The notes under the pieces were generated by a model. The model saw nothing but the letters and a program-made list of their open reading frames with translations. It was not told where the DNA came from and ran no database searches. The translations under genes and the position numbers were made by a program. This document shows positions 9,619-51,893 of a stretch of 64,000 bases of DNA, piece after piece. This DNA comes from Candidatus Avispirillum faecium. Lineage in GTDB: Bacteria > Bacillota > Clostridia > Oscillospirales > CAG-272. Location: contig CAJFOI010000050.1 in NCBI GenBank assembly GCA_904396155.1, positions 1-64,000 of the forward strand, written 5' to 3'. How positions within the stretch are numbered: position 1 is the stretch's first letter; each line of letters begins with the position of its first letter.

Positions 9619-9659
9619 AGAACGGGGGTGCGTGCGGCGGGGAAAGGAGAGGAGGCAAT

Positions 9660-10863: not shown

Positions 10864-10882
10864 TTTAGAGGAGGAATTTGCC

Positions 10883-11356: not shown

Positions 11357-11431
11357 TGTAAGGGAGGAAAACAGAGCTGTTCATACGCCGGTGAAATTGC
11401 TTTTTATGAGGGCACAAGCAGAATATATATC

Positions 11432-11468
11432 GCTGCCGCCCCCGGAAGACTCTTCCGGGGGCGGCAGC
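11432..11468. terminator. Intrinsic terminator after flavodoxin gene
   Basis: GCTGCCGCCCCCGGAAGA-C-TCTTCCGGGGGCGGCAGC followed by tttttg. Confidence 0.9.
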
Positions 11469-11595
11469 TTTTTGTATGGTCATCTGTTTTATTTTGTGAT
11501 ACAATAGACGCAAACAAACCTTAAAACATTTTTAAGATTTTAGCCGATTGCTTCTTAAAAAGGATGCTGGCATAATAAATGCAGGAGGTGCGGAT

Positions 11596-12291: not shown

Positions 12292-12318
12292 TGCGCTCCT
12301 TTCGGAAAGGATTTTTGT

Positions 12319-14412: not shown

Positions 14413-14421
14413 GGGAGTTTC

Positions 14422-32640: not shown

Positions 32641-34905
32641 TTATGATATGTGCTCCAGGGTTATGGAAACCTCTGTGTCCGGGGAGCGGGCGGGAATTTC
32701 CACTGTGCCCCGGCGTGTCTTTTCGTCATATGTGCAGACGGTCCCCGCGGGGGCCTCCCTGCACCGGAAGGCGTCTATATCGTAAAGCTCCCATGTGATT
32801 GTTCGCTGTGTACATTCGCCGGCATACCCGCTGCCCGCAGGCACATAGGAAATGGTGTACAGATCACCGTCACAGGAATAGGAGAGTTTTGCCACTCTGT
32901 ATGCCCCGGACAGGTATCCCTCTGTGATCCCGTCGTCCTCAAAGAGGAGAAAGCTGTCAGACAGTGGTTCTTCCCCGGTGAAGATTTTTATTATTAAGTG
33001 GGAAAGGGGCGCCGTGGTCATTCTGTTGGTGTAGGGCTGGGTGGGCAGCGGTTTGCCTGCTTTGACAAAGAGGGGAAAGGAAAACAAATCGTTTTGCACG
33101 GTGACGGTTTGTCCGCCGCAGTACCGGATCCCGGTAAAATAGTCATACCATGTGCCTGCGGGAAGGTACACCTTTGAGGCGGTGACAAATGTCTCTCCCC
33201 CTCCCGGTCGGCAGATGGGAGAAGCCAGCAGCGCATCTCCCAGGTAATAGGTGCCCGGATGTGCATATGCCGCTTCATTTTCCCCATCGAAAAAATACAG
33301 GGACCGCAGCAGGGGGACGCTGTCCCGATAGCTTTCATAGGCGGTGGAATACAGATAGGGGATCAGCATAGCGCGCAGGTGGAACATTTCCCGCATGGCG
33401 GAGCAGTAGGGTTCTCCCCACGTCCAGGGACGCCGGTCGATTTTCTCGTTGCCGCATACATGCAGGCGCAGCGCGGCGGAGGTGATGCCGAACTGCACCC
33501 ACCGCACATACAGCTCCGCGTGCTTTTCCGGGTCCGGGTCCTCGAACCCGCCGATGTCGTGGCTCCACCAGAAGCATCCTGCATTTCCGGCACTGACAGT
33601 CATCCGGACCTCGAAGGCGAGGGCCTCCCAGGTGGATACGGTGTCTCCCGAAAAGTATATCGGGTGCTTGTGATCTCCAAATCCGCCCCAGCGGGAAAAG
33701 GACATGCCCCGCAGGCCGGCTTTTCTGGAATGTGCATAATACAGGTGGTTGAGCCAGGGCAGGTGGGCAAGGTTTTTCAGTCCGTTGACGGCGGGATACA
33801 GATAATCCTGCTGCCAGTCCAGCCACCAGAAATCCACCCCCATTTTTTCGTATCGGGCGTGGGTGCTTTCAAAAAAAGCCTCCATATAGTCTTTGCTTCC
33901 GGCGTTGAAGCGGTAGTTGGTCACGCCCCGCCCGAGATTTTCCTGCTCCCGCTGGGATTGCCGCTCCGGGATGAGCGGCACCGTTTCCCTGTAATGCTTT
34001 TTCTGGAGGAGATCCATAAATGCGGGATATGTTTCTTCGTGGTCCCGGATTCCATCTGCCGGGTGATCGTTGAGCGTGACGGTGATTCCCCGCCGGTGGA
34101 GTGTGTCCAGCAGTTTCCCCGGATCGGGGATTTTCCGCCGGTTCCAGGTGTATCCGGTCCAGCCCAGATTTCCGCCGGCGTGACCGTAGCCGAACAACGC
34201 CTTGGGATCTCCCTCTTCATACCCCCAGTCCTGATAGTGCCAGTCCATGTCCATTACCAAAATGTCCAGAGGAAAATCGTTTGCATCGTATTCGTCTACG
34301 ATCTGCAAAAATTCCCGGGCGCTGTACGGCCACCAGCGGGAATACCAGGAGCCCAGGGCGCATTTGCGGGGCAGCGCCATGTCTCCGGATACCCGGGCGA
34401 GATCCCGCAGGGCGGCGGGGTAATCGTGGCCGTAGGCGAAAAGGTACAGATCCCACAGATGGTTCTCGCTCCGGTTTTGCAGCCAGCCGTCTGCAAAAGT
34501 CGGAGCGCCGGAGTCGTCGATCACATACCATCCGTCCCGGGCAAGAAGCCCGTCGGGAAGGGGACGCGGACCGTCCACTCCATCCAGAGTGGCCAGTGTT
34601 CCTCCCAGATTTTCCCGGTTTCTGTCCCCGAATTTCCATACGGTATCCACGTTTCCCGTATGGATCCTTGCAAACAGACTGTCCTGGGAAAAGGCGGCGC
34701 CTGCCCGGTAGGTAAGGGTGCATTTTTTTGTGGAAAGGGTGACGGTGCCGTCCTTTTGCACAAACGCGGTGTCGGCAGGATACTGCCGCCGGTTTGCAAA
34801 CAGGGTCGCGCCGTCGGCAAAGACGCCGTCCTTTGCGTATTCCATGCGGATCACGCCGTCGGTGATCACGGTAAAGCGGGCGTTTCCAATGATCCATTGA
34901 TTCAT
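32641..34905 (-). CDS. Glycoside hydrolase family 31-like
   Basis: 'LDILVMDMDWHYQDWGYE', 'GVDFWWLDWQQDYLYPAVNGLKNLAHLPWLNHLYY', 'FSRWGGFGDHKHPIYFSGDTVSTWEALAFEVRMTVSAGNAGCFWWSHDIGGF'; probable start MNQWIIGNARFTV at 34905. Confidence 0.88.
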   Translation of the reverse strand: MNQWIIGNARFTVITDGVIRMEYAKDGVFADGATLFANRRQYPADTAFVQKDGTVTLSTKKCTLTYRAGAAFSQDSLFARIHTGNVDTVWKFGDRNRENLGGTLATLDGVDGPRPLPDGLLARDGWYVIDDSGAPTFADGWLQNRSENHLWDLYLFAYGHDYPAALRDLARVSGDMALPRKCALGSWYSRWWPYSAREFLQIVDEYDANDFPLDILVMDMDWHYQDWGYEEGDPKALFGYGHAGGNLGWTGYTWNRRKIPDPGKLLDTLHRRGITVTLNDHPADGIRDHEETYPAFMDLLQKKHYRETVPLIPERQSQREQENLGRGVTNYRFNAGSKDYMEAFFESTHARYEKMGVDFWWLDWQQDYLYPAVNGLKNLAHLPWLNHLYYAHSRKAGLRGMSFSRWGGFGDHKHPIYFSGDTVSTWEALAFEVRMTVSAGNAGCFWWSHDIGGFEDPDPEKHAELYVRWVQFGITSAALRLHVCGNEKIDRRPWTWGEPYCSAMREMFHLRAMLIPYLYSTAYESYRDSVPLLRSLYFFDGENEAAYAHPGTYYLGDALLASPICRPGGGETFVTASKVYLPAGTWYDYFTGIRYCGGQTVTVQNDLFSFPLFVKAGKPLPTQPYTNRMTTAPLSHLIIKIFTGEEPLSDSFLLFEDDGITEGYLSGAYRVAKLSYSCDGDLYTISYVPAGSGYAGECTQRTITWELYDIDAFRCREAPAGTVCTYDEKTRRGTVEIPARSPDTEVSITLEHIS

Positions 34906-35002
34906 AAAAGGCTCCTTTATTGCAACCTGTGTCGCTTGTTTCATCATACAGGAGCGGGGTGGGAATGTCAATGGGATCTGCGCTTTTTGCACGGGATTTG
35001 GA

Positions 35003-37327
35003 TTATTCTCTGGGAAAGACGTAAATATATGCGGATACGGGTATGCTGCCGATATGTACATATTGAAATGCATCTCCGGTGAGAAAGACGCTCTGGACGT
35101 TGGGCAGCGCAGATGCGTCTACCTCTTTTTTGTACAGCGGTCCATGGGCGCCAAACCAAAGTACGCCGGCGGATATTTTTTCTATTTCCTCCATGCCATA
35201 GGCCTCTGCATAGGAGGAACCCAGATAGACAAGCCGTTTTTCTTTTGCCTCCACATCCAATCGAATGATGGGTTGTACCGATCGGTCCAGAAAACCGCTT
35301 TCATAGGTGATGATTTTTGTCTTCCCAAAGGACAGGGTCTCTCCCGGCGTGTAGGTGACGATCTTCACGCCCGCCGCATCTGCTCTTTCATATAGCTGGT
35401 AAGCGGTTTTTGAGTCCTCCTCTGGGATCCAGACCTGCCGCACCATGTTGCGGTTCCACAGCTTTTCCAACGTCTCGATGTGCTTGCTGTGCAGGTGGGT
35501 CAGCATAACGGCTTCGATCTCTGTGGCATAAAAGGCCTCCGAGGTGGTCGCGCCCCGCCGCAGAACGGAATAGCCTCCGGAGGATATGTCCACCAGCAGC
35601 ACTTTTTCTCCTTCGGCTATGACAAGTCCGTCATTTTTCTCCGTCCATACGCCTTCGTCCATGCCGCTGTTGACCATAGCCGTTTGGGTCTGGTCTGCGT
35701 AAAAGGCGCGCCAGCCGAAGACCGCAATTCCAAATAACAGAACCATCGCCGCCGTGCCCAGGATGGGAGGGCGCCGTTTCCCCCGTGCCGCAACCAGTGC
35801 CCAAAAAACGAAGCAGAATATGGCCAGTGTCAGCACCGGCGCAAAAGGATATTGCATGGAAATGCAAATATTCCGCAGCTTTGACAGCTGTGCCGCGATG
35901 GCAAAAGTCACCTGGCAAAGGGCGCGGACAGCGGGCAGCACAAGTCCGACAAACAGAGGAGAGGGGGACACCAGCAGCAACAGGGGAATCAGCCAGAGGA
36001 GGATGGTGGTGAGCAGGGTAAAGACGACGCAGGCAGGGGATGCCAGTATGGAGACATAGCCGAAGAAAAGGCAGGAGAGGGGCAAAATGAACAGCGAAGC
36101 ACACAGAGCCAGCAAAAACAGACTGCCGGTCTCTTTTGCCAGGTTTTTCAGACGGACGAGGACTCCTCTTCGTTTTTCTGTATCTCCAAACATCGGTTTT
36201 TGGGTGGCCCGATTGTATAGCAGAACTGCCATGACGCCCCAGAAGGATAGGAGCAGCCCCACGTCCCTTGCGGCGCCGGGATTGCACAAAATGATTGTGC
36301 ACACGGAGATTCCGGCATTGGTGAAGCTGTCGCTGCCTTTTCCCAGAATGCGCAAAAACAGGCAGATCAGCAGCATGATTCCCGCACGAACTACTGATGG
36401 AGTAAATCCGGAGATCGTCATATATAAAACGGAGATCCCAATGGAAAGCCCGTTTCCCAGGCGGCGGCTGAACCGCCGTCCCAGTGCGCTGGAAAGGCCG
36501 GTGACAATGGTCAGATGCGTGCCGCTGAGAGCCAGTACGTGGGTGATGCCCAGCCGCATGAAGTCGCGGTCCACCCGATCTGGCAGCACATCCACATTTC
36601 CAAGAAACAGTGCGGCCGAGAATCCGCCGGCTTCTTCTCCCAATTTTTCCATCAGGATTCCGGAAAGATACTTTTGCACACGCTTTCCCCAGAGCTGGAT
36701 CTGTTGGACCGGCGGCACGCTTCTTTCCGACGTGTGTATCTCCATAGCGACCGCTTCGGCCCGCACTCCTTTGGAGCGGGAATACTCCCGTTGATGGGGG
36801 TCGTAGATCTCCCCCAGACCCAGGGTCTCGAAAGTGACAGTCCCACTGACGCCGATACCGGATTCCAACAGTTCTTCCGCCTGCAGGCTGATGAGAAAGC
36901 CTGCTTTTTCTCCGTCCATGGAATCGACATATACGGTGTAGTAACCGTAGTAGGAGGTGGCCCAATTTGTGTCCATCACGATGCCGGTGATCTGTGCCTC
37001 TCGTCCGTTCAAATTGTCGTAGTATTCCTGCCGGATCTCCTCTTTCCAGGTGAACCAGCAGGCGGCGCTGCAGCCTGCCAGAAAAGCAATGAGGACGGGA
37101 ATACAGGAGGTTATAAGCCTTTTGCCGCTTTTGCGTCTTGCATTTCTTCTCCACGGCGAAAGCTCCAGAACAAGCACCACTACGGCGGCAATGAGGAGAA
37201 AAATTCCCGGATACAGGAGCTTTTTCCCCCAGGCAATATACGACAAAAGACCGTTCAGGATCCAAACGCCCAGGTACATGCTCACACAGCCCACAAACAG
37301 GGGGCGCAGCCGTATTTCCTTACTCAT
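35003..37327 (-). CDS. comEC: ComEC/Rec2-family DNA uptake protein
   Basis: 'HVLALSGTHLTIVTGLSSALGRRFSRRLG', polytopic competence domain, DUF4131-like N-terminus and C-terminal MBL-like domain. Confidence 0.88.
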   Translation of the reverse strand: MSKEIRLRPLFVGCVSMYLGVWILNGLLSYIAWGKKLLYPGIFLLIAAVVVLVLELSPWRRNARRKSGKRLITSCIPVLIAFLAGCSAACWFTWKEEIRQEYYDNLNGREAQITGIVMDTNWATSYYGYYTVYVDSMDGEKAGFLISLQAEELLESGIGVSGTVTFETLGLGEIYDPHQREYSRSKGVRAEAVAMEIHTSERSVPPVQQIQLWGKRVQKYLSGILMEKLGEEAGGFSAALFLGNVDVLPDRVDRDFMRLGITHVLALSGTHLTIVTGLSSALGRRFSRRLGNGLSIGISVLYMTISGFTPSVVRAGIMLLICLFLRILGKGSDSFTNAGISVCTIILCNPGAARDVGLLLSFWGVMAVLLYNRATQKPMFGDTEKRRGVLVRLKNLAKETGSLFLLALCASLFILPLSCLFFGYVSILASPACVVFTLLTTILLWLIPLLLLVSPSPLFVGLVLPAVRALCQVTFAIAAQLSKLRNICISMQYPFAPVLTLAIFCFVFWALVAARGKRRPPILGTAAMVLLFGIAVFGWRAFYADQTQTAMVNSGMDEGVWTEKNDGLVIAEGEKVLLVDISSGGYSVLRRGATTSEAFYATEIEAVMLTHLHSKHIETLEKLWNRNMVRQVWIPEEDSKTAYQLYERADAAGVKIVTYTPGETLSFGKTKIITYESGFLDRSVQPIIRLDVEAKEKRLVYLGSSYAEAYGMEEIEKISAGVLWFGAHGPLYKKEVDASALPNVQSVFLTGDAFQYVHIGSIPVSAYIYVFPRE

Positions 37328-37765: not shown

Positions 37766-37951
37766 TTCGTATAACGCCCTCCCGTTTGCATTTTGTTTCT
37801 TCCATAATACAACAGAATTCGTCAAAAAACAAGATTTGGAAAAAATTTGAAAGGATCCTGTGTAAATTTTGGAAGTGGAAAAAAGATTGACACTTTTTGT
37901 ATGTTTGTGTACAATAATATTGAAAAACACACGAGAAGGGGAGGGAAAGAT

Positions 37952-38902
37952 GTGCATGTTGGAGGTAAGTTGCTGCAAAGACTGCTGATTTTGTGCTTCG
38001 CGTTGCTTCTTGCTGGCTGCGCGCAGCCCATCGTGCGCCCGGCTGTCCCTGCTTCTCCGGAGCAATCCGTGCAGTTGGAGACCGTGCCTTCCACAGCACC
38101 TCAGTCCGAAACTGCCGGGACGCCGCAGACAGAACCGCCGCAGACTACCGATGTGCCGCAGACTACTGTGCCGCCTCCTTCCCAGGAGTCAGAGATCACC
38201 GGAGGGGGAGAACTGGACCTCTCCCGCCCTCCTGCATATCCTGCGGAGGAAACGGAGGAATGTACTCCGTCTGTTTTGATGTATCACTTGATTTTGGAGG
38301 AGCCGTATACGGAGCTTGTCAATTTGTTTGTGCGTCCGTCGGAATTTGAGGATCATCTGCAAAAGCTGTGTGCCGCCGGCTGCCAGTTTCTGTTTGCCGA
38401 TGCATTTGGACCGCAGGAGCAGCGCAGTGTGATCCTTACGTTTGACGACGGCTATGTGGACAACTATACGGAAATGTTCCCCATTTTGAAAAAGTACGGC
38501 GCCAGGGCGACGGTATTCATGATTGCAGGCAATATCGGCGCGCCGGGATATCTCACGGAGGATATGATCCGGGAGATGGCGGCCAGCGGCCTGGTTCAGT
38601 TTGCATCTCATACCCTTACCCATTCCTCGCTGACCACTCTGTCCCCAGAGGGGCTGGAAAAGGAATTTTCTCAGTCTGCACAGATTCTCTGCAGTCTCAC
38701 CGGAGAATATCCCAAAGCGGTCTGCTATCCTGGCGGCACGGTCAATGCCTTTGTGCAGGAGATGGCGGCAAAGTATTACCAGTTTGGATATACGACGAAG
38801 AACAGTGCAGATACTTCCGGATGTGATCCCATGGCCATCCCCCGTGTGCGGGTCTCCCGGGGGATGAGCGGGGATGCCGTGCTGGCTCGCCTGGGTTGGT
38901 AA
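37952..38902 (+). CDS. Polysaccharide deacetylase (NodB-like) lipoprotein
   Basis: Lipobox 'LLILCFALLLAGCAQP', Pro/Thr-rich linker, 'SVILTFDDGYVDNYTEMFPILKKYGARATVFMIAGNIG', 'FASHTLTHSSLTTLS'; GTG start likely. Confidence 0.85.
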   Translation: MHVGGKLLQRLLILCFALLLAGCAQPIVRPAVPASPEQSVQLETVPSTAPQSETAGTPQTEPPQTTDVPQTTVPPPSQESEITGGGELDLSRPPAYPAEETEECTPSVLMYHLILEEPYTELVNLFVRPSEFEDHLQKLCAAGCQFLFADAFGPQEQRSVILTFDDGYVDNYTEMFPILKKYGARATVFMIAGNIGAPGYLTEDMIREMAASGLVQFASHTLTHSSLTTLSPEGLEKEFSQSAQILCSLTGEYPKAVCYPGGTVNAFVQEMAAKYYQFGYTTKNSADTSGCDPMAIPRVRVSRGMSGDAVLARLGW

Positions 38903-39310: not shown

Positions 39311-39339
39311 TTGACATCGGACCGGGCTTGTGTTATCAT
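39311..39339 (+). promoter_or_regulatory. Promoter of the ABC/DUF5696 locus
   Basis: TTGACA (39311-39316), 17-bp spacer, TATCAT (39334-39339), ~150 bp upstream of the start codon. Confidence 0.6.
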
Positions 39340-39495
39340 ATCTTGTATACAAATGGGGCAAAAGGTGATATTTTGTCCCGGTGGCTTTGTCGCGGCCGAA
39401 AATATGCACAGGTTGCGGCGGCCGATATGCTGCGTTTGCGGTTTGCTCCGTCCCGGACGGATCCGTGCGCAGGGCAACATTCAGGAGGAATGCAT

Positions 39496-42400
39496 ATGAA
39501 AACAGGAAAGGCCAAAAAGCTTCTGGCGCTCTCGCTGGGCGTGCTGATGCTGATTGGATCCGTGACGCCGGTGCTCGCTGCGGATACCGACGCCACGGAG
39601 GAAGACACAGAAACGTCTTCCACCGGCGTGACACTGCAGCAGCTGCAGGATCAGTACACGCTGATGACCTATGAGACTTATAAGACACGGTATAACTACG
39701 AGGAGACCCCGCGCACGGGAGAAAGCTTTGTGGTAGATGCCCGCGATTATTCTGAGGCGACGGAGGATGCCGAGGTGGAAGCGACGACCTGGGAGGGCAG
39801 AGAGTGCCTGGTGATCGGGTCTTCCGGAAGCGTCTCCTGGACGTTTGACGTGCCGGAAACCGGGTTTTATGCCATCCGTCTCAGCTACAATGCTACCAGC
39901 GACAGCACCAACGATATTGAGCGGCTTTTCATGCTGAACGGAAAATCTCCGTATGAGGAGGCGCAGTACCTTCGCATCACCAAGACCTGGGCGTACGAGT
40001 ATGAAGGAGAAACGAGAGAAGACGCTTTTGTAAAGGACTCTCTGGGCAACGAGCTGAGCCCTGAGCCCGAGGTGGATTATGTGTGGGAAACCTACGATGT
40101 AGAGGATGCGGACGGCTACTACACGGTGCCCCTGGAATTCTATATGGAGGCAGGGGAGAACACCATCACTCTGGAGGGAATCCGGGAGCCTATTGCCATC
40201 GAAAACTTTACATTTTATACATATGAGGATCCCGTATCCTATGAAGAAGTGCTGCAGGAATATGAGGAAAAGGGATATGAAGCAGCCGACGCGGAACCCA
40301 TCAAGATCGAGGCGGAAATGCCGGATTCCGTATCCAATTATACCATATATCCCATTTATGACCGTACATCTGCGGGTACCAGCCCGCAGGATCCTTCTCT
40401 GATCTACCGGAATACGATCGGGGGAGACAAATGGCTTACTTCCGGGCAGTGGATTCGGTACACGTTTGAGTGTCCTGCTTCCGGACTGTATGAAATCGTG
40501 CTTCGATATGAACAGTCTACTGTGCGGGGAATGTATACTTCCAGAAGTCTGAAGATCAATGGAGAGTATCCCTTTGCAGAGGCGAAAAACTGCCAGTTCC
40601 CCTATGATAAGAAATGGCAGGCTGCGGCGCTCAACGATGGAGATACCACCTTCCAGTTTTATTTTGAGGAAGGGGAGACCTATGTCCTGGAGTTTGAGGC
40701 TACCAAAGGTGCGTTTACAGATATTCTCCGCCAGGTAGCCGAGACGGTGGACAGCCTGAACGACGATTATATGGAGCTGGTCAAACTGACCGGTACGGAC
40801 CCGGATCCAAACCGCGACTATGGATTCAGCCGGATTATGCCGGACGTGATCCGGGATCTTGGACGTCAGCAGTTGGTACTGGAGCAGCTGGTGGACTATA
40901 TTTTGGAAGTCAACGGTGGTCGTTCGGAGAACACCTCCACGCTGGAGCAGGCTGCACTGGTGATCGAGAAAATGGTGACGGACGAGCGGGAGATTGCAGC
41001 CAACATGAGCGAGTTGAGTACCTGGATTTCCTCTCTGGGTACCTGGCTGAACGAATCTACCCAGCAGTATTTGCAGGTGGATTACATTCAGATCCAGCCT
41101 GCCGGCAGTGAGCTTCCGGCGGGAAAAGACTCCGCATGGTCTTCCTTTGTATTTGAATTCAAAAAATTCCTGGCAAGTTTTTATACAGATTATAACTCCA
41201 TCGGTGTAGCAGGCGACGACGAGGCGGAGTCGGAGACAGAGCTGGAAGCCTGGACGTCTGTGGGGCGTGACACGGCGCAAGTGATCAAAAACCTGATTAA
41301 CAGCGGCTTTACCCAGGAAACCGGCGTCGGGGTCAATATAAAACTTACAGGCGCCAATGTGGTACTGCCGTCCATCCTTGCGGGCGTGGGGCCGGACGTG
41401 GTCCTGGATGCGGGAGATCCTACGGAAATGGCCATCCGCGGAGCGGTGCTTCCTTTGAATGACTTTGATACCTTTGATGAGGTGGTCGGGCGTTTTACGG
41501 ATGCGGCGATCAACCGGTTGAGCCTGTATGGAAAGACCTATGCGATCCCCTTTACTCAGGGACTGTCGGTCATGTTTGCCCGGGATGATGTAATGCAGCA
41601 GCTGGGGTTGGAGATTCCCGAGACGTGGGATGATGTGATTGCGCTGATTCCTACGCTGCAGTTCAATAATATGACCATCGGATTTACAGCGAACTATCGG
41701 ACTTTCGTATACCAACACGGGGGGGACCTCTGGGAAGATGAGGGAATCCGCACTGCCTTTGATTCCGATGAGGTGATTGAGGCCTTTACCTTCATCAATA
41801 ACTTGTTTCAGCAGTATTCCCTTCCCAAACAGTTTGATGCATCCAACCGTTTCAAGTCCGGCGAGATGCCCCTGATCATGTCCGGCTATGAGCTGTACAA
41901 CACGCTGGTTGTATTTGCACCGGAAATCAGTAATCTTTGGAGTATTTATCAGCTTCCCGGCGTGTTAAATGAGGAGACCGGCGAGATCAACCGCGTGTCG
42001 GAAGTCGCTGCCAATGGCATGTATATGACCAGAGACTGCAGGGATCCGGAAGCGGCTTGGGATCTTCTCGATTATATCGGCTCCAAGGACTATCAGGTGG
42101 ATTACTCTGAAGAAATGGTGGCGCTGCTGGGCCCGTCCGCAAAACAGCAGCTGGCCAATTTGGAAGCCCTGGAGGAGCAGCCCTGGACAGATGACGAGTA
42201 CCGGACGCTGGTGGCAGTTTTGGGAGATGCATACGCGATCCCCACGTATCCGGGAAGTTATTTTATCGACCGGTATGCCAACTTCGTTGTAAACCGAGGT
42301 TTTTCAGAGGGTGCAGACGCAGCGGATATGCTTCAGGAATACGCACCGGTTATGAACAAAGAGATCACCCGCAAGCGGCAGGAATTTAAGCTGATGGTGG

Positions 42401-42657
42401 ATGATGAGTGGCAGGCTGTCCGTGCATATATGGAAATGGACGATTTCAGCGAGTGGCGGGAGTACTGGAATGAGACCTACGGTATTACAGATCCCACCGA
42501 TAACTCCTGTATGCAGTATTCTGACGAATACGACTATTCCTACAGAGACTGGATGGAGGAAAACGGCGTATCTGTGAGCAATTACGAGACCTGGCAGGAG
42601 AATGTTGCGCAAGGTGATACAAACCTCTCCTATAGAGAGTGGCTCGAGCAAGAGTGA
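39496..42657 (+). CDS. Very large extracellular solute-binding protein with N-terminal carbohydrate-binding-like modules
   Basis: Signal peptide 'KKLLALSLGVLMLIGSVTPVLAADTDA'; N-terminal 'SVSWTFDVPETGFYAIRLSYNATS' and 'QWIRYTFECPASGLYEIVLRYEQST' (CBM6/35-like); C-terminal 'YGKTYAIPFTQGLSVMFARDDVMQQLGLEIPETWDDVIALIPTLQ' (family 1 SBP). Confidence 0.85.
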   Translation: MKTGKAKKLLALSLGVLMLIGSVTPVLAADTDATEEDTETSSTGVTLQQLQDQYTLMTYETYKTRYNYEETPRTGESFVVDARDYSEATEDAEVEATTWEGRECLVIGSSGSVSWTFDVPETGFYAIRLSYNATSDSTNDIERLFMLNGKSPYEEAQYLRITKTWAYEYEGETREDAFVKDSLGNELSPEPEVDYVWETYDVEDADGYYTVPLEFYMEAGENTITLEGIREPIAIENFTFYTYEDPVSYEEVLQEYEEKGYEAADAEPIKIEAEMPDSVSNYTIYPIYDRTSAGTSPQDPSLIYRNTIGGDKWLTSGQWIRYTFECPASGLYEIVLRYEQSTVRGMYTSRSLKINGEYPFAEAKNCQFPYDKKWQAAALNDGDTTFQFYFEEGETYVLEFEATKGAFTDILRQVAETVDSLNDDYMELVKLTGTDPDPNRDYGFSRIMPDVIRDLGRQQLVLEQLVDYILEVNGGRSENTSTLEQAALVIEKMVTDEREIAANMSELSTWISSLGTWLNESTQQYLQVDYIQIQPAGSELPAGKDSAWSSFVFEFKKFLASFYTDYNSIGVAGDDEAESETELEAWTSVGRDTAQVIKNLINSGFTQETGVGVNIKLTGANVVLPSILAGVGPDVVLDAGDPTEMAIRGAVLPLNDFDTFDEVVGRFTDAAINRLSLYGKTYAIPFTQGLSVMFARDDVMQQLGLEIPETWDDVIALIPTLQFNNMTIGFTANYRTFVYQHGGDLWEDEGIRTAFDSDEVIEAFTFINNLFQQYSLPKQFDASNRFKSGEMPLIMSGYELYNTLVVFAPEISNLWSIYQLPGVLNEETGEINRVSEVAANGMYMTRDCRDPEAAWDLLDYIGSKDYQVDYSEEMVALLGPSAKQQLANLEALEEQPWTDDEYRTLVAVLGDAYAIPTYPGSYFIDRYANFVVNRGFSEGADAADMLQEYAPVMNKEITRKRQEFKLMVDDEWQAVRAYMEMDDFSEWREYWNETYGITDPTDNSCMQYSDEYDYSYRDWMEENGVSVSNYETWQENVAQGDTNLSYREWLEQE

Positions 42658-42736
42658 CTGCGTGATATAAATCTGTTCTGTGCTCCGCCTTTTATGGGGC
42701 GGAGCACGACACAAATCTAAATTGGGAGAAGCAGAC

Positions 42737-43681
42737 ATGGCTAAAAAAGAAAAAGATGTCGCCGTCCATGGAGATAAAACGCGGTTCCAGTGGACGTGGC
42801 ATCTGATGAAGCAATATAAGATCGGCTATCTTATGATTGCGCCGTTTATGATTTTGTTCATCTTGATGACCGTTATCCCTGTCGTTTTTGGTATGTTCGT
42901 CAGCTTTACGGACTACAACCTGCTGCAGCCGCCCCAGTGGGTTGGTTTGGATAACTATGTCAACCTGTTTTTGAACGACGATTTGTTTGTCACCGCGTTG
43001 AAAAACACCATGATTTTTGCGGTGACGGTCGGGCCTGGGTCCTACATTCTTTCCTTTGTGGTGGCCTGGTTCATCAATGAACTCACGCCGAAGGTGCGTG
43101 CGTTTGTGACGCTGATCTTCTATGCGCCTTCCCTTTGTACCGGCGCCTATGTAGTATTTGGCTATATTTTTTCCGGAGATTCCTACGGCCTGCTCAACGG
43201 CTGGCTGCTGAACTGGGGAATTATCGACACACCGATTCTGTTTACTTCAGATGCGAATTGGATTATGCCTGTTTGTATTTTCGTCGCTCTGTGGATGTCT
43301 CTGGGTACAGCATTCCTTTCCTTCATTGCAGGCTTCCAGGGACTGGACCGCAGCCAGCTGGAGGCGGGAGCGGTGGACGGTATTACCAACCGCTGGCAGG
43401 AACTTTGGTATATCACTCTTCCCAGTATGAAGCCGCAGCTTTTGTTCGGTGCCATCATGTCCATCACCGGCTCCTTTGGGTTTGGTGCGATCGTTACCAC
43501 GCTGTGCGGCGGCATCCCCACGGACTATGTGGGATACACCCTTTCCCATCACTTGAGTGAATACGGAGGTACCCGCTGGGAGTTCGGATATGCCAGTGCG
43601 ATCTCCATGGTGCTCTTCTTCCTGATGGTGGGAACGAATATGCTGGTGCAGAAGTTGCTTTCAAAGGTGGGTAAGAGCTGA
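42737..43681 (+). CDS. Sugar ABC transporter permease (MalF-like), pair 1
   Basis: 'IGYLMIAPFMILFILMTVIPVVFGMFVSFTDYNLL'; EAA loop 'QLEAGAVDGITNRWQELWYITLPSMKPQLL'. Confidence 0.93.
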   Translation: MAKKEKDVAVHGDKTRFQWTWHLMKQYKIGYLMIAPFMILFILMTVIPVVFGMFVSFTDYNLLQPPQWVGLDNYVNLFLNDDLFVTALKNTMIFAVTVGPGSYILSFVVAWFINELTPKVRAFVTLIFYAPSLCTGAYVVFGYIFSGDSYGLLNGWLLNWGIIDTPILFTSDANWIMPVCIFVALWMSLGTAFLSFIAGFQGLDRSQLEAGAVDGITNRWQELWYITLPSMKPQLLFGAIMSITGSFGFGAIVTTLCGGIPTDYVGYTLSHHLSEYGGTRWEFGYASAISMVLFFLMVGTNMLVQKLLSKVGKS

Positions 43682-44553
43682 TGAAAAAATTAAGAACAAG
43701 AAAGCATCGAGTGGTGCTGAGCCGCTCCGCCGGCGGGGACTTTGGCGTTGCGATCTTCATGATTTTGTTGGGAATTCTGATGTTTTTCCCCATGTACTAC
43801 CTTATTATTCAGTCGCTGAAGCCGCTGGACGAATTGTTTTATTTCCCGCCTCGGATGTGGGTTTCCAATCCGTCTTTTGAGAATTTCTCCGATCTGTTCA
43901 ACTTGTTGAACACTTCCTGGGTGCCTTTTTCCAGGTATTTGTTTAACACGGTATTCATTACTGTGTGCGGAACCTTCGGCAATCTGATTTTTTCCTCTCT
44001 TTGTGCATATGCCCTGTCCAAGCTTCCTTTCCCCGGACACAGATTCGTTTTCCAGCTGATCCAGAAATCTCTGATGATCGGCTCGGAGGTAGCGTCCCTG
44101 ATGGTGTTTGTGGTCATCTCCAAAATGGGGCTTTTGGATTCCTACTGGGCGATTATCGTTCCGGCACTTGCAACGCCGCTGGGTCTGTATCTGATGAAGC
44201 AGTTCATAGACTCCAACGTGTCTACGGAGATTTTGGAGAGTGCCCGTTTGGACGGTGCCAGTGAATTTCGGACCTTCTGGTCCATTGCCATGCCCATGGT
44301 AAAGCCGGCCTGGCTGACGCTGATTATTTACTCCTTCCAGGGTCTTTGGAATACGGGACAAAATCTTTATGTTTACAGCGAGGAGCTGAAGACGCTGAAT
44401 TTCACCATCAACCAGGTGCTGCTGGAAGGCGTCGTCCGTTCCGGCGCTTCAGCGGCCGCGACCGTTGTTATGATGATTGTGCCCATTGTGGTATTTGTCA
44501 TTTCCCAGAGCAAGATCATCGAAACAATGGGTTCCAGCGGTATGAAGGACTGA
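43681..44553 (+). CDS. Carbohydrate ABC transporter permease (MalG-like), pair 1
   Basis: 'MFFPMYYLIIQSLKPLDELFYFPPRMWV'; EAA loop 'ILESARLDGASEFRTFWSIAMPMVKPAWL'. Confidence 0.93.
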   Translation: MKKLRTRKHRVVLSRSAGGDFGVAIFMILLGILMFFPMYYLIIQSLKPLDELFYFPPRMWVSNPSFENFSDLFNLLNTSWVPFSRYLFNTVFITVCGTFGNLIFSSLCAYALSKLPFPGHRFVFQLIQKSLMIGSEVASLMVFVVISKMGLLDSYWAIIVPALATPLGLYLMKQFIDSNVSTEILESARLDGASEFRTFWSIAMPMVKPAWLTLIIYSFQGLWNTGQNLYVYSEELKTLNFTINQVLLEGVVRSGASAAATVVMMIVPIVVFVISQSKIIETMGSSGMKD

Positions 44554-44563
44554 GGAGGTATTT

Positions 44564-46699
44564 ATGAAAAAAACTGTCAAAATACTCCTGGTCACGATGG
44601 CGCTGCTCTTTGTACTGCCTGTAGCGGTGTCCGCAGCGGCGCCGTATACCACTTATACATATTCCTCTACCGGCTTTGTACTGTATTCTCCGGATGCGTA
44701 TGTGCCGGATCAGGTAGTGGATGCGGCCTATATCGGGCAGGACAGAAACGGAAATTCTGTCACGATAGAGGATCCGCGGGATCTGCAGGTAGACGAGGAC
44801 GGAAACGTCTATATCGTGGACGGAAAGCAGAACGCTATTTATGTACTGGATAGGTATTATAAAAATAAATTTACCATCAATTCCTTTGTAAACGAGCAAG
44901 GTGTGCCCGACACGTTTTCCGGCGTGTCCGGCGTGTATGTCACCACTGATTTTATTTATGCCTGTGACTCGGAAAACAGCCGCATCGTCATTTTCGACCG
45001 GGACGGCAACTTTGTAAAAACAGTAGGCCAGCCGGAGAGCTCTCTGATTGAAGAGGACGCCATTTACCGGCCGGTAGCCGTTGCCGTGGATGAGTACGGC
45101 AGAATGTTTGTCGTTTCCTCCACTACCTATGAAGGGATTATCGTCATGGGAGACAACGAGGAATTTTACGGATACATTGGTGCACAAAAAGTCTCCCTGT
45201 CTCCGTGGCAGGCCTTTTGGAGAAAGCTTGGTATCAATGACGACGAGACCATTGTTTCTACAGAGTACAACAACATCACCATTGATGAAGACAACTTCCT
45301 ATATGTGACGACTTCCTCTATCGATGCAAGTGAGCAGCAAAATGCGATCACCGGCAAAAGCACTGCCAGTGCCTACGCGCCGGTGAAAAAACTGAATGTA
45401 TCCGGAACGGATATCATGCGAAGAAACGGATTTTATCCGCCTTCCGGAGAGGTAAAGGTCTCGACCGACGAGACCAGCGCGATTCAGGGTGCTTCCGTTA
45501 TCATCGATGCTGCCGTGGGGCCGGAAGGAACCTGGTCCATCATTGATGAAAAGCGTTCCAAAGTATTCACCTATGACGATGACGGCAATTTGTTGTTTGC
45601 CTTCGGCGACAGCGGCAACCAGACCGGGTCCATCGCCAGCATAGAAGCGGTGGTATATCAGGGCGACAAGATGCTGCTTCTGGATAAAGGGAACAACAGC
45701 TTTACGGTATACCGGCGGACAGAATACGGCGACATATTGATCAACGCGCTGAAGAATCAGAACGAGCGCAACAATGCGGCGGAAATCAGCGACTGGCAGG
45801 AAATTCTGAAGCGGAACAACAACTTTGACGTAGCGTATGTGGGAATTGCCAAGGCGCTGTATCAGCAGGGCAATTATGAGGACGCCATGGAATATTACCA
45901 GGCTGCCTATGACAACGCCGGATATTCCGATGCTTACGGCGAGATCCGCAAGGAATGGATATCGAATTTCTTTTTGATCATCCCGGTGGTGGTCATTGTG
46001 CTTGCCGTACTTGTGGTGAAATTTTTCGGATATGCCGCGAAGCGCAACCGAATGGTAGCTTTGAAGGTGGGGCAGAAAAATATTCGAGAGGAACTGCTGT
46101 ATGCCTTCCATGTGATTTTCCACCCCTTTGACGGGTTCTGGGATCTGAAGCATGAGAAACGGGGCAGCGTGCGCAGTGCTTTCGTCATCCTGGTTGTCAC
46201 GGTGCTGGCTTTCTTCTATCAGACGGTTGGCACGGGTTACATTTTCGGCGGGCAGGATGCGAATACGACGAACATTATCATGACGCTGCTTTCGGTAGCT
46301 GTTCCCCTGCTTTTGTGGGTCATCGCAAACTGGTGTCTGACCACTTTGTTTGACGGCGAGGGAAGCTTTGCCGATGTATTTGTGGCAAGCTGCTACGCGC
46401 TGGTTCCCCTGCCTCTGCTGATCATTCCCAGTACGCTGCTTTCCAATGTACTGGTGGCGGAGGAAGGCACCTTCATTTCCATGATCAATACAGTGGCATT
46501 CCTCTGGATGGGAATTCTGCTCTTCTTCGGCATGATGATCACACACGATTATTCTTTCGGCAAGAGCCTCATCATTGGTGCCGTGACAATTGTAGGAATG
46601 CTCTTTATCATGTTTATCGCGGTGCTGTTCTCTACATTGATCACAAGAATCGTCAGCTTTGTTCTCAGCATTGTCAATGAAATACAATACAGAGTGTAG
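44564..46699 (+). CDS. NHL-repeat beta-propeller / TPR-like / YIP1-like membrane protein
   Basis: Signal peptide; NHL-like 'DPRDLQVDEDGNVYIVDGKQNAIYVLD', 'RPVAVAVDEYGRMFVVS'; TPR-like 'AYVGIAKALYQQGNYEDAMEYYQAAYDNAGY'; C-terminal multi-TM YIP1-like 'AFHVIFHPFDGFWDLKHEKRGSVRSA'. Confidence 0.8.
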   Translation: MKKTVKILLVTMALLFVLPVAVSAAAPYTTYTYSSTGFVLYSPDAYVPDQVVDAAYIGQDRNGNSVTIEDPRDLQVDEDGNVYIVDGKQNAIYVLDRYYKNKFTINSFVNEQGVPDTFSGVSGVYVTTDFIYACDSENSRIVIFDRDGNFVKTVGQPESSLIEEDAIYRPVAVAVDEYGRMFVVSSTTYEGIIVMGDNEEFYGYIGAQKVSLSPWQAFWRKLGINDDETIVSTEYNNITIDEDNFLYVTTSSIDASEQQNAITGKSTASAYAPVKKLNVSGTDIMRRNGFYPPSGEVKVSTDETSAIQGASVIIDAAVGPEGTWSIIDEKRSKVFTYDDDGNLLFAFGDSGNQTGSIASIEAVVYQGDKMLLLDKGNNSFTVYRRTEYGDILINALKNQNERNNAAEISDWQEILKRNNNFDVAYVGIAKALYQQGNYEDAMEYYQAAYDNAGYSDAYGEIRKEWISNFFLIIPVVVIVLAVLVVKFFGYAAKRNRMVALKVGQKNIREELLYAFHVIFHPFDGFWDLKHEKRGSVRSAFVILVVTVLAFFYQTVGTGYIFGGQDANTTNIIMTLLSVAVPLLLWVIANWCLTTLFDGEGSFADVFVASCYALVPLPLLIIPSTLLSNVLVAEEGTFISMINTVAFLWMGILLFFGMMITHDYSFGKSLIIGAVTIVGMLFIMFIAVLFSTLITRIVSFVLSIVNEIQYRV

Positions 46700-46713
46700 G
46701 CAAGGAGGTAGGA

Positions 46714-49689
46714 ATGAAAATGAAACGAATAGTATCTGCCTTCCTGTCTCTCGTTACAGTGATAGGCGCCGTTGCCGCCACAGGATACGTTTCTGTGATC
46801 GATACTTCTGCGGCATATGAGGACAAAATAGACGAAGATGGAAATCCCATCATCAACTATATGACCCAGGCTTACGAAACGCCTCAGGCAAAGCTGCGGG
46901 ATATGGTTCTGGCCAGAGAGCAGGGGGACTTCCAGCTGTGGATTGAGGAATTCACGGGTGAAATCGCCTTTGTGGATACCCGAACGGGAGAAACGCTGTT
47001 TTCCAATCCCTATAATGTGGCCGGAAGCGACAACTGGGCATCTGCTTCCACCAAGCAGCAGCTGTTGTCTCAGCTTGCGGTAACGTATGAGGACAACGGT
47101 GTGGAAGCGACGATGTATTCCTATACGGAAGCAGCGCTTCGTGGGCAGATCAGCTATAAGAATATCAAGAACGGTCTGCGGGTGGAATACACCATCGGTG
47201 AGCTGCAGACGACCCGTCTGGTTCCCCGTATGATTTCCAAGACCCGTTTTGAAACCATGATCCTCAACAACATCCCGGATGGTACATATAAGGACAGACT
47301 GTTGTCCTTCTATACCCTTTACGATACCTCCGATGTTTCTCTGACAGAGCAGAATGTAAAGGAAATTCAGGCGGCATTCCCCATTACACGGCAGTTTGCG
47401 GTGTATGTCTGCGATACCAGCATCGTGTCCAAGGAACTGGAGGATTTGGAGACGATTATCAAGGCTTACTGTCCCACATATACCTATGAGGAAATGGAAC
47501 AGGACCATGCGGACTGCGACTACACCAATACGGATGAAGCGCCTGCCAACTTCAAAATGGCAATTGAGTATACCTTTACGGATACGGGTGTTCAGGCGCG
47601 TCTTCCTGCCAACGGCATTCGCTTTGACGAGTCCAATTATGTATTAAAATCTGTGACGATGCTCCCCTACATGGGCTGCGGAAGCTCGGCGAACAATGGA
47701 TATACATTTATTCCGGACGGTTCCGGTACTTTGATCCGTTTTGAGGATGTATATGGTATAACCTATAACGTATCGGGACAGATGTACGGCGCGGATTACG
47801 CGTATCACACCATTTCCGGACAGCATTCCGAGGTGATGCGTATGCCTGTGTTCGGTGTGGTGGAAGAAGTGGAAGAGGCGCCGGTTTTGAGTACGCCCGG
47901 CAGTGCGCCCAGCACCGGAGCGACCACATCTCAGCGGGGATTCCTTGCAATAATTACCGAAGGGGATTCCATGGCGAATCTCATGAGCTCTCACGGAGGA
48001 AGGCTGCATGGCTATAATACGGTCTATGCCAGTTTCAACCCCCGGCCCTCGGACTCCTACAATCTGGCAGATTCCATATCGGTAGGAACCAACGCGTCCT
48101 GGACGGTCACTACCGACCGGAAGTACTCCGGATCTTATACCATCAATTATGTATTGCTTACCGATGCAAATAAGGCTGAAGAAGCGGGGCTGGAAGAATA
48201 CTATGAGCCTTCTTACGTAGGTATGGCGGCTGCGTATCGGGATTATCTGGAGAAAAACGGCTATATTACACGTCTGAGTGAGGACGATGTGGACGATGAT
48301 CTGCCTCTCTATCTGGAGACTTTCGGATCTATCAAGACCACGGAGCGTGTGCTGTCCTTCCCCATGACGGTCAATACGCCGCTGACAACCTTTGAGGATG
48401 TGGAGACGATCTACAATGAGCTGTCCGAGGAAGGAATCTCCAATATCAATTTCCGGCTGACGGGCAGCTACAACGGCGGACTGGACAACACCTATCCTTC
48501 TAAAGTTTCCTGGGTGAAGGAACTGGGAGGAAAGTCCGGCTTTGAGGATCTTTTGGAGAGCGGAGAAGAAAACGGCTTCGGTGTCTATCCGGACTTCGAC
48601 TTTGCATATATGAAGAGTGCCGACTGGTTTGACGGCGTCTCGGAGAGACGGGATCTCATAAAATCCATTGATGACCGGTATATGTCCAAGCGGGAATACG
48701 ATGCGGCCATGCAGAGCTTTGAATCAGATTCCGCTCTGGCAATATCGTCTTCTGTATACGATTACTTCTATGAAAAGTTTGAGAAGGATTACGGAAAGTA
48801 CGAGGCAAAGGAAGTGTCCGTTTCCACTTTGGGAAAGGAACTGAACTCCGACTTTGACGAAGAGGATCCGTATAACCGAGAGGACTCCAAGGAGTTCACC
48901 ATGCAGATGCTGGAGAAGCTGTCCGAGAAATATGATGTTATGGTAGACGGCGGAAACGCGTATGTACTGCCTTATGTGGATCATATTCTGGATCTGCCCA
49001 CGGAATCCAGCAACTTCCTGCGGGCCAGTGAATCGGTTCCCTTTGTTTCCATGGTGCTTCACGGGTATGTGAATTATACAGGCAGTGCGCTCAATATGGA
49101 AGGGGACGTACAATATTCTCTTCTGAAAGCGGTAGAAAACGGTGCAAGTCTGTACTTTGTTCTCTGTTATCAGAATACGAATGCGCTGAAGGAATCGGAT
49201 ACATACAACAAGTATTTCTCTGTTGCCTACGACGTCTGGAAGGACGATATGGTTACATATTATGATACCATCAACGAAGCCCTTCGGGATCTTCAGACCG
49301 CTTGCATCGTAGACCACGAATTTATGACAGCCACGCGCGTTATGGACGAGACGGAGAATGAAGAGGCTGTCACAGAGGATGAGGAAAGTGCAGCGGAACA
49401 GGCTGCGGATGCAGAACGTGCCCAGCTGCGTGCAGAGCTGGAGGCGCAGCGGTACGGCGGCGTGCCGGAGGATTATTTGAGCGGCAGTGGTGTTACCGGC
49501 GGAACGGGCAGCAGTTCTTCCGCGCAAAATGCGCAGAGATATGAAACCGAGAGCGGTACCGTGGTGCGTGTGGAGTACGAAACCGGAGTAAGTTTCATCA
49601 TTAATTACAATTCTTATGATGTCACCGTGCAGTACGGCGGGGAAACCTATACGGTAGAAGCGCTGAACTTTGTCCGGATCGATGGTTAA
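46714..49689 (+). CDS. Large secreted DUF5696-like protein
   Basis: Signal peptide; architecture and operon context of DUF5696 proteins; 'YMGCGSSANNGYTFIPDGSGTLIRFED', 'DDDLPLYLETFGSIKTTERVLSFPMTVNTPLTTFEDVETIYNELSEEGISNINFRLTGSYNGG'. Confidence 0.72.
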   Translation: MKMKRIVSAFLSLVTVIGAVAATGYVSVIDTSAAYEDKIDEDGNPIINYMTQAYETPQAKLRDMVLAREQGDFQLWIEEFTGEIAFVDTRTGETLFSNPYNVAGSDNWASASTKQQLLSQLAVTYEDNGVEATMYSYTEAALRGQISYKNIKNGLRVEYTIGELQTTRLVPRMISKTRFETMILNNIPDGTYKDRLLSFYTLYDTSDVSLTEQNVKEIQAAFPITRQFAVYVCDTSIVSKELEDLETIIKAYCPTYTYEEMEQDHADCDYTNTDEAPANFKMAIEYTFTDTGVQARLPANGIRFDESNYVLKSVTMLPYMGCGSSANNGYTFIPDGSGTLIRFEDVYGITYNVSGQMYGADYAYHTISGQHSEVMRMPVFGVVEEVEEAPVLSTPGSAPSTGATTSQRGFLAIITEGDSMANLMSSHGGRLHGYNTVYASFNPRPSDSYNLADSISVGTNASWTVTTDRKYSGSYTINYVLLTDANKAEEAGLEEYYEPSYVGMAAAYRDYLEKNGYITRLSEDDVDDDLPLYLETFGSIKTTERVLSFPMTVNTPLTTFEDVETIYNELSEEGISNINFRLTGSYNGGLDNTYPSKVSWVKELGGKSGFEDLLESGEENGFGVYPDFDFAYMKSADWFDGVSERRDLIKSIDDRYMSKREYDAAMQSFESDSALAISSSVYDYFYEKFEKDYGKYEAKEVSVSTLGKELNSDFDEEDPYNREDSKEFTMQMLEKLSEKYDVMVDGGNAYVLPYVDHILDLPTESSNFLRASESVPFVSMVLHGYVNYTGSALNMEGDVQYSLLKAVENGASLYFVLCYQNTNALKESDTYNKYFSVAYDVWKDDMVTYYDTINEALRDLQTACIVDHEFMTATRVMDETENEEAVTEDEESAAEQAADAERAQLRAELEAQRYGGVPEDYLSGSGVTGGTGSSSSAQNAQRYETESGTVVRVEYETGVSFIINYNSYDVTVQYGGETYTVEALNFVRIDG

Positions 49690-49704
49690 GGAAAGGAGGA
49701 AAAT

Positions 49705-50697
49705 ATGGCTTTATTGAAAAAGACCAAAGCGAAGGCCACTTCGGAGCTTGGCGTTGTGAAGGAAAGAAAGCGCGGTGCAAGTCTCCAGGTAAAGAGATCC
49801 AGAGCCGGGTGGTTGTTCATCCTGCCGTTTCTGCTGGGCTTCCTCCTGATTTATATTCCCATAATTTTTGATTCGATCAAATACAGTTTCCACGAAATTG
49901 ACATTATCACTGGCGGCGGATATGAATTGGTCTGGGTAGGTCTTGGAAACTATCAGGCGGCGCTGAGTGATGAGACCTTTGTGCAGACACTGCTGTCGGG
50001 TCTTACCGGACTGATTGTGGAGATTCCGGCGATTTTGCTCTTTTCATTGTTTATTGCCATTCTGCTCAATCAAAAGATGGCCGGGCGTGCGGCTTTCCGT
50101 GCAATCTTCTTCATCCCCGTGCTGCTCACCACCGGGCTGATTGCGGATATTGACGCAGGCAACATGCTGGGCGACTATATGGGTTCCACCACAGAGGGGA
50201 TCGACACGGGAAATACCACTGGGACCAGTGTGGCAGAAATCATATCGGCAGCGGATATTCAGAATCTGTTCAGCAATATGATTGTAGGAAGCGAACTGGC
50301 CACACGGGTGACGGAACTGGTAAACAACATCTTTGATATTGTCAACCGTTCCGGTGTGCAGATGTTGATTTTCCTGGCGGGGCTGCAGGGAATTTCCCCT
50401 GCGATCTACGAGTCCTGTCAGATAGAGGGTGCTTCCTCCTGGGAGACTTTCTGGAAGATCACGCTTCCCATCATTTCACCGATGATTTTGGTAAACGCCA
50501 TCTATACGGTCATTGATTCATTTACTTCCGGAAACAATGCAGTGATGGCTTATGTGAACCAGTTGTACAGCTCTGCGGGAGACGGGAATGTAATCAGTTC
50601 TGCAATGGCATGGATGTACTTCCTGCTGGTCATGGTGATCGTAGCAGCGGTAGCGGGAATCATCAGTCTGTTCGTGTTCTACCAGAGGAAAGACTGA
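49705..50697 (+). CDS. Sugar ABC transporter permease (MalF-like), pair 2
   Basis: 'AGWLFILPFLLGFLLIYIPIIFDSIKYSFHEI'; EAA loop 'IYESCQIEGASSWETFWKITLPIISPMI'; extra ~60-aa loop 'DIDAGNMLGDYMGSTTEG...'. Confidence 0.92.
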   Translation: MALLKKTKAKATSELGVVKERKRGASLQVKRSRAGWLFILPFLLGFLLIYIPIIFDSIKYSFHEIDIITGGGYELVWVGLGNYQAALSDETFVQTLLSGLTGLIVEIPAILLFSLFIAILLNQKMAGRAAFRAIFFIPVLLTTGLIADIDAGNMLGDYMGSTTEGIDTGNTTGTSVAEIISAADIQNLFSNMIVGSELATRVTELVNNIFDIVNRSGVQMLIFLAGLQGISPAIYESCQIEGASSWETFWKITLPIISPMILVNAIYTVIDSFTSGNNAVMAYVNQLYSSAGDGNVISSAMAWMYFLLVMVIVAAVAGIISLFVFYQRKD

Positions 50698-50715
50698 GAA
50701 AGGAGGATCGTGCAA

Positions 50716-51771
50716 ATGACAAATCAAGTGCAAAATGCTCACAAAATCAAACGGGAGAGCAAAAAAAGAATCCGTGTGGAATTCGATCGCACGCCTCTTC
50801 TCGAACGGCTCAGATCGAAGTATCTGTCTCTGTACTTCCTCAAGCGGCTGGTCTGGCATGTCTTCCGGTTTTTGTTGCTTCTGGGTGTGTGCTATGTCAT
50901 CCTGTTCCCGTTTTATTCTAAGATTGCATCCTCGTTTATGAGTCCGGAAGACTTTGTGGACGTCACGGTGCGTTTGATTCCGAAATATCCGACGTTGGAT
51001 ATTTACAAAGCTATCATCATGGAAAACGGGTATCTGTCGGCACTGTTGAACACATTTATTTTAGCAGGTTCCTGTGCACTGCTTCAGACTTTTGTCTGCT
51101 GCCTGGTGGGCTATGGATTTGCAAAATTTAAGTTTAAGTTCAACAAGCTGCTGTTCCTTCTGGTAATCTTCACCATGATCGTGCCCCATTCTACACTGCA
51201 GCTTTCCATGTTTATGGAATTCCGATATTTTGATATTTTGGGGATCTTGAACCTCCTTGGAGGCGGTGTGGTAGACTGGCTGCGGCTGTTGGAGAACCCA
51301 TCTTTGAATTTGATCAACACCTACTGGCCGCTGTGGATTTTGTCTGCTACTGCGCTTGCCTTTAAGAACGGGCTGTATATCTTTATGATGCGTCAGTTCT
51401 TCAAGGGCGTGCCGGATGAGCTGGAAGAATCTGCGTATGTGGATGGAGCGGGAGTGTTCCGTACCTTTATTCAGATCATTCTTCCGCTGTCCATTCCCAT
51501 GATGATCACCGTGTTTATGTTTGCCTTCTCGTGGCAGTGGACGGACAATTTCTACACGGATTTGTTCTACACGACTTCCGGTCCTACACTGATGCCTGAT
51601 ATTGTGGCGATTCCCACATCCCTCAATATCACTACGGCTGCTGCGAACATGTACAATACTGCCATTACCAACACCTGCGGGATTCTTATTCTGCTGCCTT
51701 TGATACTTTTGTATGTTTTTGCACAGAAGTACATTATCCAGGGGATCGAGCGTTCCGGTATTACAGGCTGA
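50716..51771 (+). CDS. Carbohydrate ABC transporter permease (MalG-like), pair 2
   Basis: 'VCYVILFPFYSKIASSFMSPEDFVD'; EAA loop 'LEESAYVDGAGVFRTFIQIILPLSIPMM'. Confidence 0.92.
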   Translation: MTNQVQNAHKIKRESKKRIRVEFDRTPLLERLRSKYLSLYFLKRLVWHVFRFLLLLGVCYVILFPFYSKIASSFMSPEDFVDVTVRLIPKYPTLDIYKAIIMENGYLSALLNTFILAGSCALLQTFVCCLVGYGFAKFKFKFNKLLFLLVIFTMIVPHSTLQLSMFMEFRYFDILGILNLLGGGVVDWLRLLENPSLNLINTYWPLWILSATALAFKNGLYIFMMRQFFKGVPDELEESAYVDGAGVFRTFIQIILPLSIPMMITVFMFAFSWQWTDNFYTDLFYTTSGPTLMPDIVAIPTSLNITTAAANMYNTAITNTCGILILLPLILLYVFAQKYIIQGIERSGITG

Positions 51772-51785
51772 CGGAAAATACGAAT

Positions 51786-51822
51786 AAAACGGCGTGGCCG
51801 CAGAAGCGACCGCGCCGTTTTT
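51786..51822 (+). terminator. Terminator of the ABC/DUF5696 locus
   Basis: AAAACGGCGtGGCCGC-agaa-GCGaCCGCGCCGTTTTT. Confidence 0.75.
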
Positions 51823-51845: not shown

Positions 51846-51879
51846 AAAATCCCGCAAACACATTTGTTTGCGGGATTTT
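51846..51879. terminator. Terminator hairpin of the following minus-strand operon
   Basis: AAAATCCCGCAAACA-catt-TGTTTGCGGGATTTT. Confidence 0.8.
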
Positions 51880-51893
51880 GCGTTTGGGATGTT

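Follow-up and report, generated by a model that had tools for sequence, protein, structure and literature searches.

We think it rather probable that the seven-gene operon described here encodes a CUT1-type ABC importer for oligosaccharides, paired and reduced in comparison with its relative, the xloEFG-X-GH129-axoFGE locus of Caldicellulosiruptor bescii; one binding protein (SBP) would be shared by two permease pairs, and a DUF5696 protein would probably be non-hydrolytic. The operon lies within a 64,000-nucleotide stretch of DNA that was analysed at its full length (the window), and the evidence comes from its computed gene content, from the conservation of that content elsewhere, and from predicted folds.

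Seven intact, co-directional open reading frames occupy positions 39496-51771 of the forward strand, in the order SBP-F1-G1-NHL/TPR/Yip1-DUF5696-F2-G2, with gaps of -1 to +22 nt between them. The first (39496-42657) encodes a giant SBP of 1053 residues, read from an ATG behind AGGAGG. It is followed by F1, a MalF/UgpA-like permease (42680-43681; BPD_transp_1 5.4e-7; EAA loop at residues 228-248) that starts with GTG at 42680 or alternatively with ATG at 42737, and by G1, a MalG/UgpE-like permease (43681-44553; BPD_transp_1 2.4e-8; UgpE-like in NCBIfam). Next come a membrane protein made up of an NHL propeller, TPR, transmembrane segments and Yip1 (44564-46699; Pfam Yip1 4.7e-17, NHL 3e-5, TPR weak), a predicted extracytoplasmic DUF5696 protein of GH129/GH101 fold (46714-49689; Pfam DUF5696 2.8e-156), and a second permease pair, MalF-like F2 (49705-50697; BPD_transp_1 3.2e-8) and MalG-like G2 (50710-51771; BPD_transp_1 1.6e-15). 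EAA loops are legible in all four permeases, and none of the seven genes encodes a nucleotide-binding protein or ATPase. In the number, order and common strand of the genes as read from ORF and Pfam analysis, in the EAA loops and in the lack of an ATPase, an earlier note on this DNA described the operon correctly, and the strong terminator that it reported is equally evident: a hairpin with a T run at 51786-51822 (+) has a predicted stability of -26.8 kcal/mol (z -5.6), matched by none of 200 shuffled sequences. The promoter that it proposed, TTGACA-N17-TATCAT at 39311-39339 (+), does exist and scores 11/12 in a consensus scan, with an extended -10 (TG before the -10), although 1.4 sites of such quality are expected by chance in the region scanned. 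The short gaps, the promoter-like sequence with its extended -10 and the stability of the terminator are together consistent with a single transcription unit. No Rfam family was matched in the 64-kb window.

Several features near the operon deserve mention in their own right. A second palindrome, CCCGCAAACACATTTGTTTGCGGGATTTT, at 51851-51880, lies between the operon and a convergent zinc dehydrogenase gene at 51894 and is likely a bidirectional terminator. A polysaccharide deacetylase gene (37847-38902, +) sits just 5' of the operon and is no constant neighbor in relatives. Farther away are a GH31-type glycosidase with DUF5110 (32641-35073, -) and a large GDSL esterase with a type I dockerin (60469-63492, +).

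The seven genes divide into two importer modules that can occur apart: giant SBP-F1-G1 (module A) and NHL/TPR-YIP1-DUF5696-F2-G2 (module B). Linkage within module B is near-invariant: of some 150 loci, practically every one shows it. DUF5696 homologues occur in 41 of 58 genomes surveyed (26 of 39 among those of good quality), and a reading of gene neighborhoods found the same gene order across the window's order and across the Bacillota, so the system is widespread and not a local oddity. The genome scan was seeded on F1; the alignment of distant DUF5696 proteins is too divergent for scanning. Among the carriers with names are many Paenibacillus, Cohnella, Lederbergia, Gracilibacillus, Halalkalibacter hemicellulosilyticus and Thermobacillus xylanilyticus, and further carriers are found among Lachnospiraceae and Acholeplasmataceae MAGs and in two Treponema MAGs. 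The Treponema loci (L069, L080), which lie outside the Bacillota, hold the complete system together with a small SBP; they probably reflect horizontal transfer or a binning error. The NHL/TPR/Yip1 protein, which has a signal peptide and about six transmembrane segments, corresponds to two separate genes, NHL/TPR and Yip1, in Paenibacillaceae and others (split orthologues in L049), and Yip1 is also a separate gene in distant members of the window's order.

Across the phylum, gene content was tallied for 39 DUF5696-centered loci from simple ORF calls and profile matches in fetched stretches of at most 20 kb, some of them on contigs that end inside the locus. YIP1 lies 5' of DUF5696 in all 39; 38 have F2 or G2, 33 have a small SBP and 23 have module A. 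Sixteen of the 39 have module B but no module A, 13 of these with their own small SBP, and the order B-A was seen in 4 loci. A small SBP of 450-600 residues usually adjoins module B: an SBP-family match was obtained for 31 of 51 upstream and 17 of 95 downstream neighbors, and such a protein is present in 69 of 80 named genomes. Two permease pairs with one SBP, as the earlier note had it, is thus not the general form, since in other Bacillota the second pair mostly comes with a small SBP of its own and can be found without module A. The note itself had said that separate pairs, each with an SBP, would count against its proposal, and for the system as a whole this arrangement largely prevails. 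For the window's family alone its description stands, because none of its 22 close loci has a small SBP. The broader idea of a linked envelope and transport system with two permease dimers is supported as well.

The giant SBP is assigned to the CUT1 binding proteins by its Pfam matches (SBP_bac_1, PF01547, 7.7e-21; PF13416, 2.6e-18). Its AF2 model (pLDDT 84) predicts two beta-sandwiches (residues ~78-245 and ~286-403), a helical spacer (407-563) and a CUT1 SBP domain (~577-960). In profile comparison the sequence of the second sandwich matches the CBM35 stretch of 5x7g. The CBM-like modules suspected from the letters alone are in this way borne out: there are two sandwiches in the model, and the second is CBM35-like by sequence. 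Among solved structures the SBP domain is closest to Lin1841 (profile 3.5e-34) and Tlet_1705, and 5ci5 and 5ysb are among the Foldseek matches. The signal peptide has no lipobox, a feature shared by 123 of 134 orthologues or loci in a simple pattern test; by the same kind of test the small SBP carries a lipobox in 76 of 123. Lacking a lipobox, the giant SBP is, to judge from its sequence, probably retained at the cell by a signal anchor, a glycan or a partner protein.

The suggestion that a shared-type ATPase is encoded outside the operon has proved sound: the window's genome (G000) contains an unlinked UgpC/MsmK-type ATPase on contig C44 (481.7 bits against a cut-off of 432). An SBP_bac_1/8 protein, MalF/MalG pairs with EAA loops and this candidate unlinked MsmK-type ATPase together place the system with the CUT1 importers. 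Searches for an SBP that might serve F2-G2 covered Pfam SBP_bac_1 and SBP_bac_8, the window's genome being examined one family at a time. A single further CUT1-type SBP came to light there, on contig C34, where the order SBP-F-G followed by a lacto-N-biose phosphorylase (L156, about 9600-15400) marks a likely uptake locus for host-glycan disaccharides; the remaining SBPs look polyamine- or ferric-type. It could be argued that F2-G2 uses an SBP from elsewhere in the genome, such as that of the lacto-N-biose locus, and that we are looking at two ordinary importers. The small SBP that accompanies module B in most Bacillota and the presence of one further CUT1 SBP in this genome would agree with such an arrangement, and with the genome 85% complete a distant SBP could be missing. 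The further SBP, however, has its own permease pair and adjoins the phosphorylase. In a relative whose genome is 97% complete (G024), the sole SBP_bac_1/8 protein besides the giant SBP is of ferric/2-AEP type and is part of a transporter that has an ATPase of its own and a fused permease. Within these two families the giant SBP is thus the one carbohydrate SBP found in that genome, where it most likely works with both pairs. We regard recruitment of an outside SBP as unlikely, and consider that in the window's lineage the giant SBP most likely serves both F1-G1 and F2-G2, a view suggested by the absence of other candidates of the SBP_bac_1 and SBP_bac_8 families from genomes that are 85% and 97% complete.

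The DUF5696 protein is the second component whose role bears on our reading. Its AlphaFold model (pLDDT 84) finds GH129 as its best Foldseek match, then GH101; ranks 1-11 are all GH129 (TMt 0.68-0.73), with 5opq, 8rzk and 5wzn as the top structures and E values ranging from 1e-26 to 1e-21 (1.4e-26 for 5opq, 2e-21 for 5wzn). Profile comparison with GH129 chains gives values of 1.8e-7 to 1.1e-6, indicating remote homology, and a fragment of NagBb, a GH129 protein, matches a Paenibacillus DUF5696 protein at 5e-4. In the window's protein DUF5696 alone exceeds its Pfam cut-off, and Glyco_hydro_129 gives no match; a Pfam GH129 search of 300 Bacillota genomes returned no matches, and its control was also silent. 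The DUF5696 proteins of some close relatives (L029, L032, L033, L035 and L026) reach 1260-2060 residues, and their large extra stretches match no informative Pfam family.

Could this protein be a genuine GH129-like hydrolase, perhaps of a new kind, which trims oligosaccharides at the membrane before import, making the operon an ordinary hemicellulose uptake locus? The fold, the homology and the GH129 annotation of the C. bescii counterpart all lean that way, as do the GH26, GH10, GH30, GH43 and esterase genes that neighbor the module elsewhere. The catalytic dyad of NagBb is D435/E478. Equivalent positions were located by barrel strand order and by the spacing of 43 residues from strand 4 to strand 5; in the window's protein they fall on T705 and N748. 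Position 705 is Asp in 79 of 97 DUF5696 sequences from outside the window's order, in keeping with hydrolysis; it is Thr, Ser or Asn in all 18 close sequences and non-Asp in the L061 sequence as well. Position 748, the presumptive acid/base, is Asn in 18 of 18 close sequences and nearly everywhere else. D713, R722, N794 and E808 are very conserved, a point in favor of a hydrolase, and N748 strongly so; on sequence grounds these five residues could form an unconventional active site. No GH10 was found in eight close relatives that carry the locus or in the window's own genome, which also speaks against a hydrolase in a hemicellulose locus. Weighing these points, we find a trimming hydrolase improbable. 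We infer from the dyad positions, as placed by strand order and spacing, that DUF5696 has probably lost GH129-type catalysis, most clearly in the window's lineage, and that it is probably a non-hydrolytic, extracytoplasmic surface component. The 'GH129' labels given to DUF5696-type proteins in biomass-degrading genomes merit re-examination.

Neighbors of the module elsewhere (GH26, GH10, GH30, GH43, CBM65 and GDSL esterases) point to several hemicelluloses as substrates. No consistent glycosidase neighbors are seen in the window's family, and GH10 is absent from all nine locus-carrying genomes examined. Xylan was considered as the substrate of the window's lineage and set aside, there being no GH10 and no linked xylanases. 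The window's genome has one GH43, away from the operon, a lacto-N-biose phosphorylase, and a set of cohesin and dockerin proteins in which GH123, DUF4838, GDSL and phosphatase domains occur. Its 18 dockerin matches and one cohesin-dockerin protein suggest a cellulosome-like system to which the phosphatase, DUF4838 and GH123 domains would belong. This lineage may take up host or mixed glycans. One genome of the same order (G044) has six DUF5696 matches whose neighbors differ (GH127, GH106-like and others; loci L039, L041, L043, L045 and L047), and these loci are a natural series for substrate assignment.

The missing glycosidase neighbors in the window's family, and accessory proteins that are never lost, would also suit a sensing or envelope-assembly device, with the propeller and pseudo-hydrolase detecting glycan and the permeases transmitting a signal or recycling material. 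Four canonical EAA-loop permeases and a CUT1 SBP domain point instead to uptake, as do the carbohydrate-enzyme neighbors elsewhere and the induction of the C. bescii counterpart on xylan; we consider a sensing device very improbable.

If the operon is a paired importer, the secreted, non-lipidated giant SBP would dock on glycan through its CBM-like sandwiches and hand oligosaccharides to F1-G1. By default it would also feed F2-G2, whose small SBP would have been lost in the window's lineage, and the unlinked MsmK-type ATPase would energize both pairs. The NHL/TPR/Yip1 and DUF5696 proteins, constant companions of F2-G2, would most likely be its extracytoplasmic docking or substrate-presenting assembly, as their linkage suggests, with DUF5696 a GH129-fold protein that may bind glycan, its hydrolysis probably lost. 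More speculatively, and with greater doubt than conviction, we propose that module B may be a class of ABC importer in its own right, one with two obligate extracytoplasmic partners (an NHL/TPR propeller anchored in the membrane by Yip1, and a retired GH129-fold protein) that bind glycan and present it to the permease; in the window's family one polymer-docking SBP would feed both pairs. Across the Bacillota, DUF5696, NHL/TPR-YIP1 and a permease pair form a unit of four genes that hardly varies, and if DUF5696 is a retired hydrolase that presents glycan, an accessory architecture of ABC sugar importers has gone unrecognized. Whether two permease pairs can be served by one SBP is a question for which the single-SBP variant would be a simple test case provided by nature.

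The operon resembles several known systems in part. Like the CUT1 importers that share an MsmK/MsmX ATPase, it combines an SBP_bac_1 domain and MalF/MalG-type permeases with an unlinked ATPase; unlike them, it has two permease pairs for one SBP and constant NHL/TPR/Yip1 and DUF5696 partners. Lin1841, a beta-1,2-oligoglucan SBP (5ysb), is the nearest solved relative of the giant SBP by sequence and near the top by fold, but it has no equivalent of the 560-residue N-terminal CBM-like and helical part, and its ligand is not transferable. GH129 (NagBb, 5wzn; ZgGH129, 5opq and 8rzk) and GH101 have overall fold and remote sequence homology in common with DUF5696; compared with GH129, the presumptive nucleophile and acid/base positions of the window's lineage are Thr and Asn, and the gene context differs.

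The nearest counterpart is the xylan degradation locus of C. bescii (Anaerocellum), Athe_0174-0185, in which xloEFG-X-GH129-axoFGE precedes xylanase (xyn) genes. This locus is induced on xylan (Rodionov et al. 2021, PMC8579813), XynR acts on it through an operator (PMC12285236), and deletion of msmK, the shared ATPase, impairs growth on oligosaccharides and polysaccharides (PMC8579813). To judge from order and content, its X and GH129 genes would be the NHL/Yip1 and DUF5696 genes. A locus in our set (L061) has the content SBP-F-G-NHL/Yip1-DUF5696-F-G-SBP-SBP-GH43/CBM; the XynR operator was not found in it, which leaves gene order and the GH43/CBM neighbor as the grounds for assigning it to Caldicellulosiruptor. 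The suggestion that the system is undescribed is not borne out: the order SBP-F-G-X-GH129-F-G is in print for C. bescii (PMC8579813), and the general arrangement is already mapped to xylan in one thermophile. Papers on the function of DUF5696, or on YIP1 with an SBP, were not found in the literature searched. Nor did that literature describe a form with a single SBP, NHL/TPR-YIP1 and DUF5696 as constant partners, or a GH129 dyad that has apparently been lost. The C. bescii locus and the window locus agree in the order SBP-F-G-X-GH129-like-F-G, in having no ATPase in the locus and in a shared-type MsmK ATPase; they differ in that C. bescii has a second SBP (axoE), absent from the window locus and 22 close loci, and has xylanase genes and xylan regulation, whereas the flanks of the window locus carry no xylanolytic genes.
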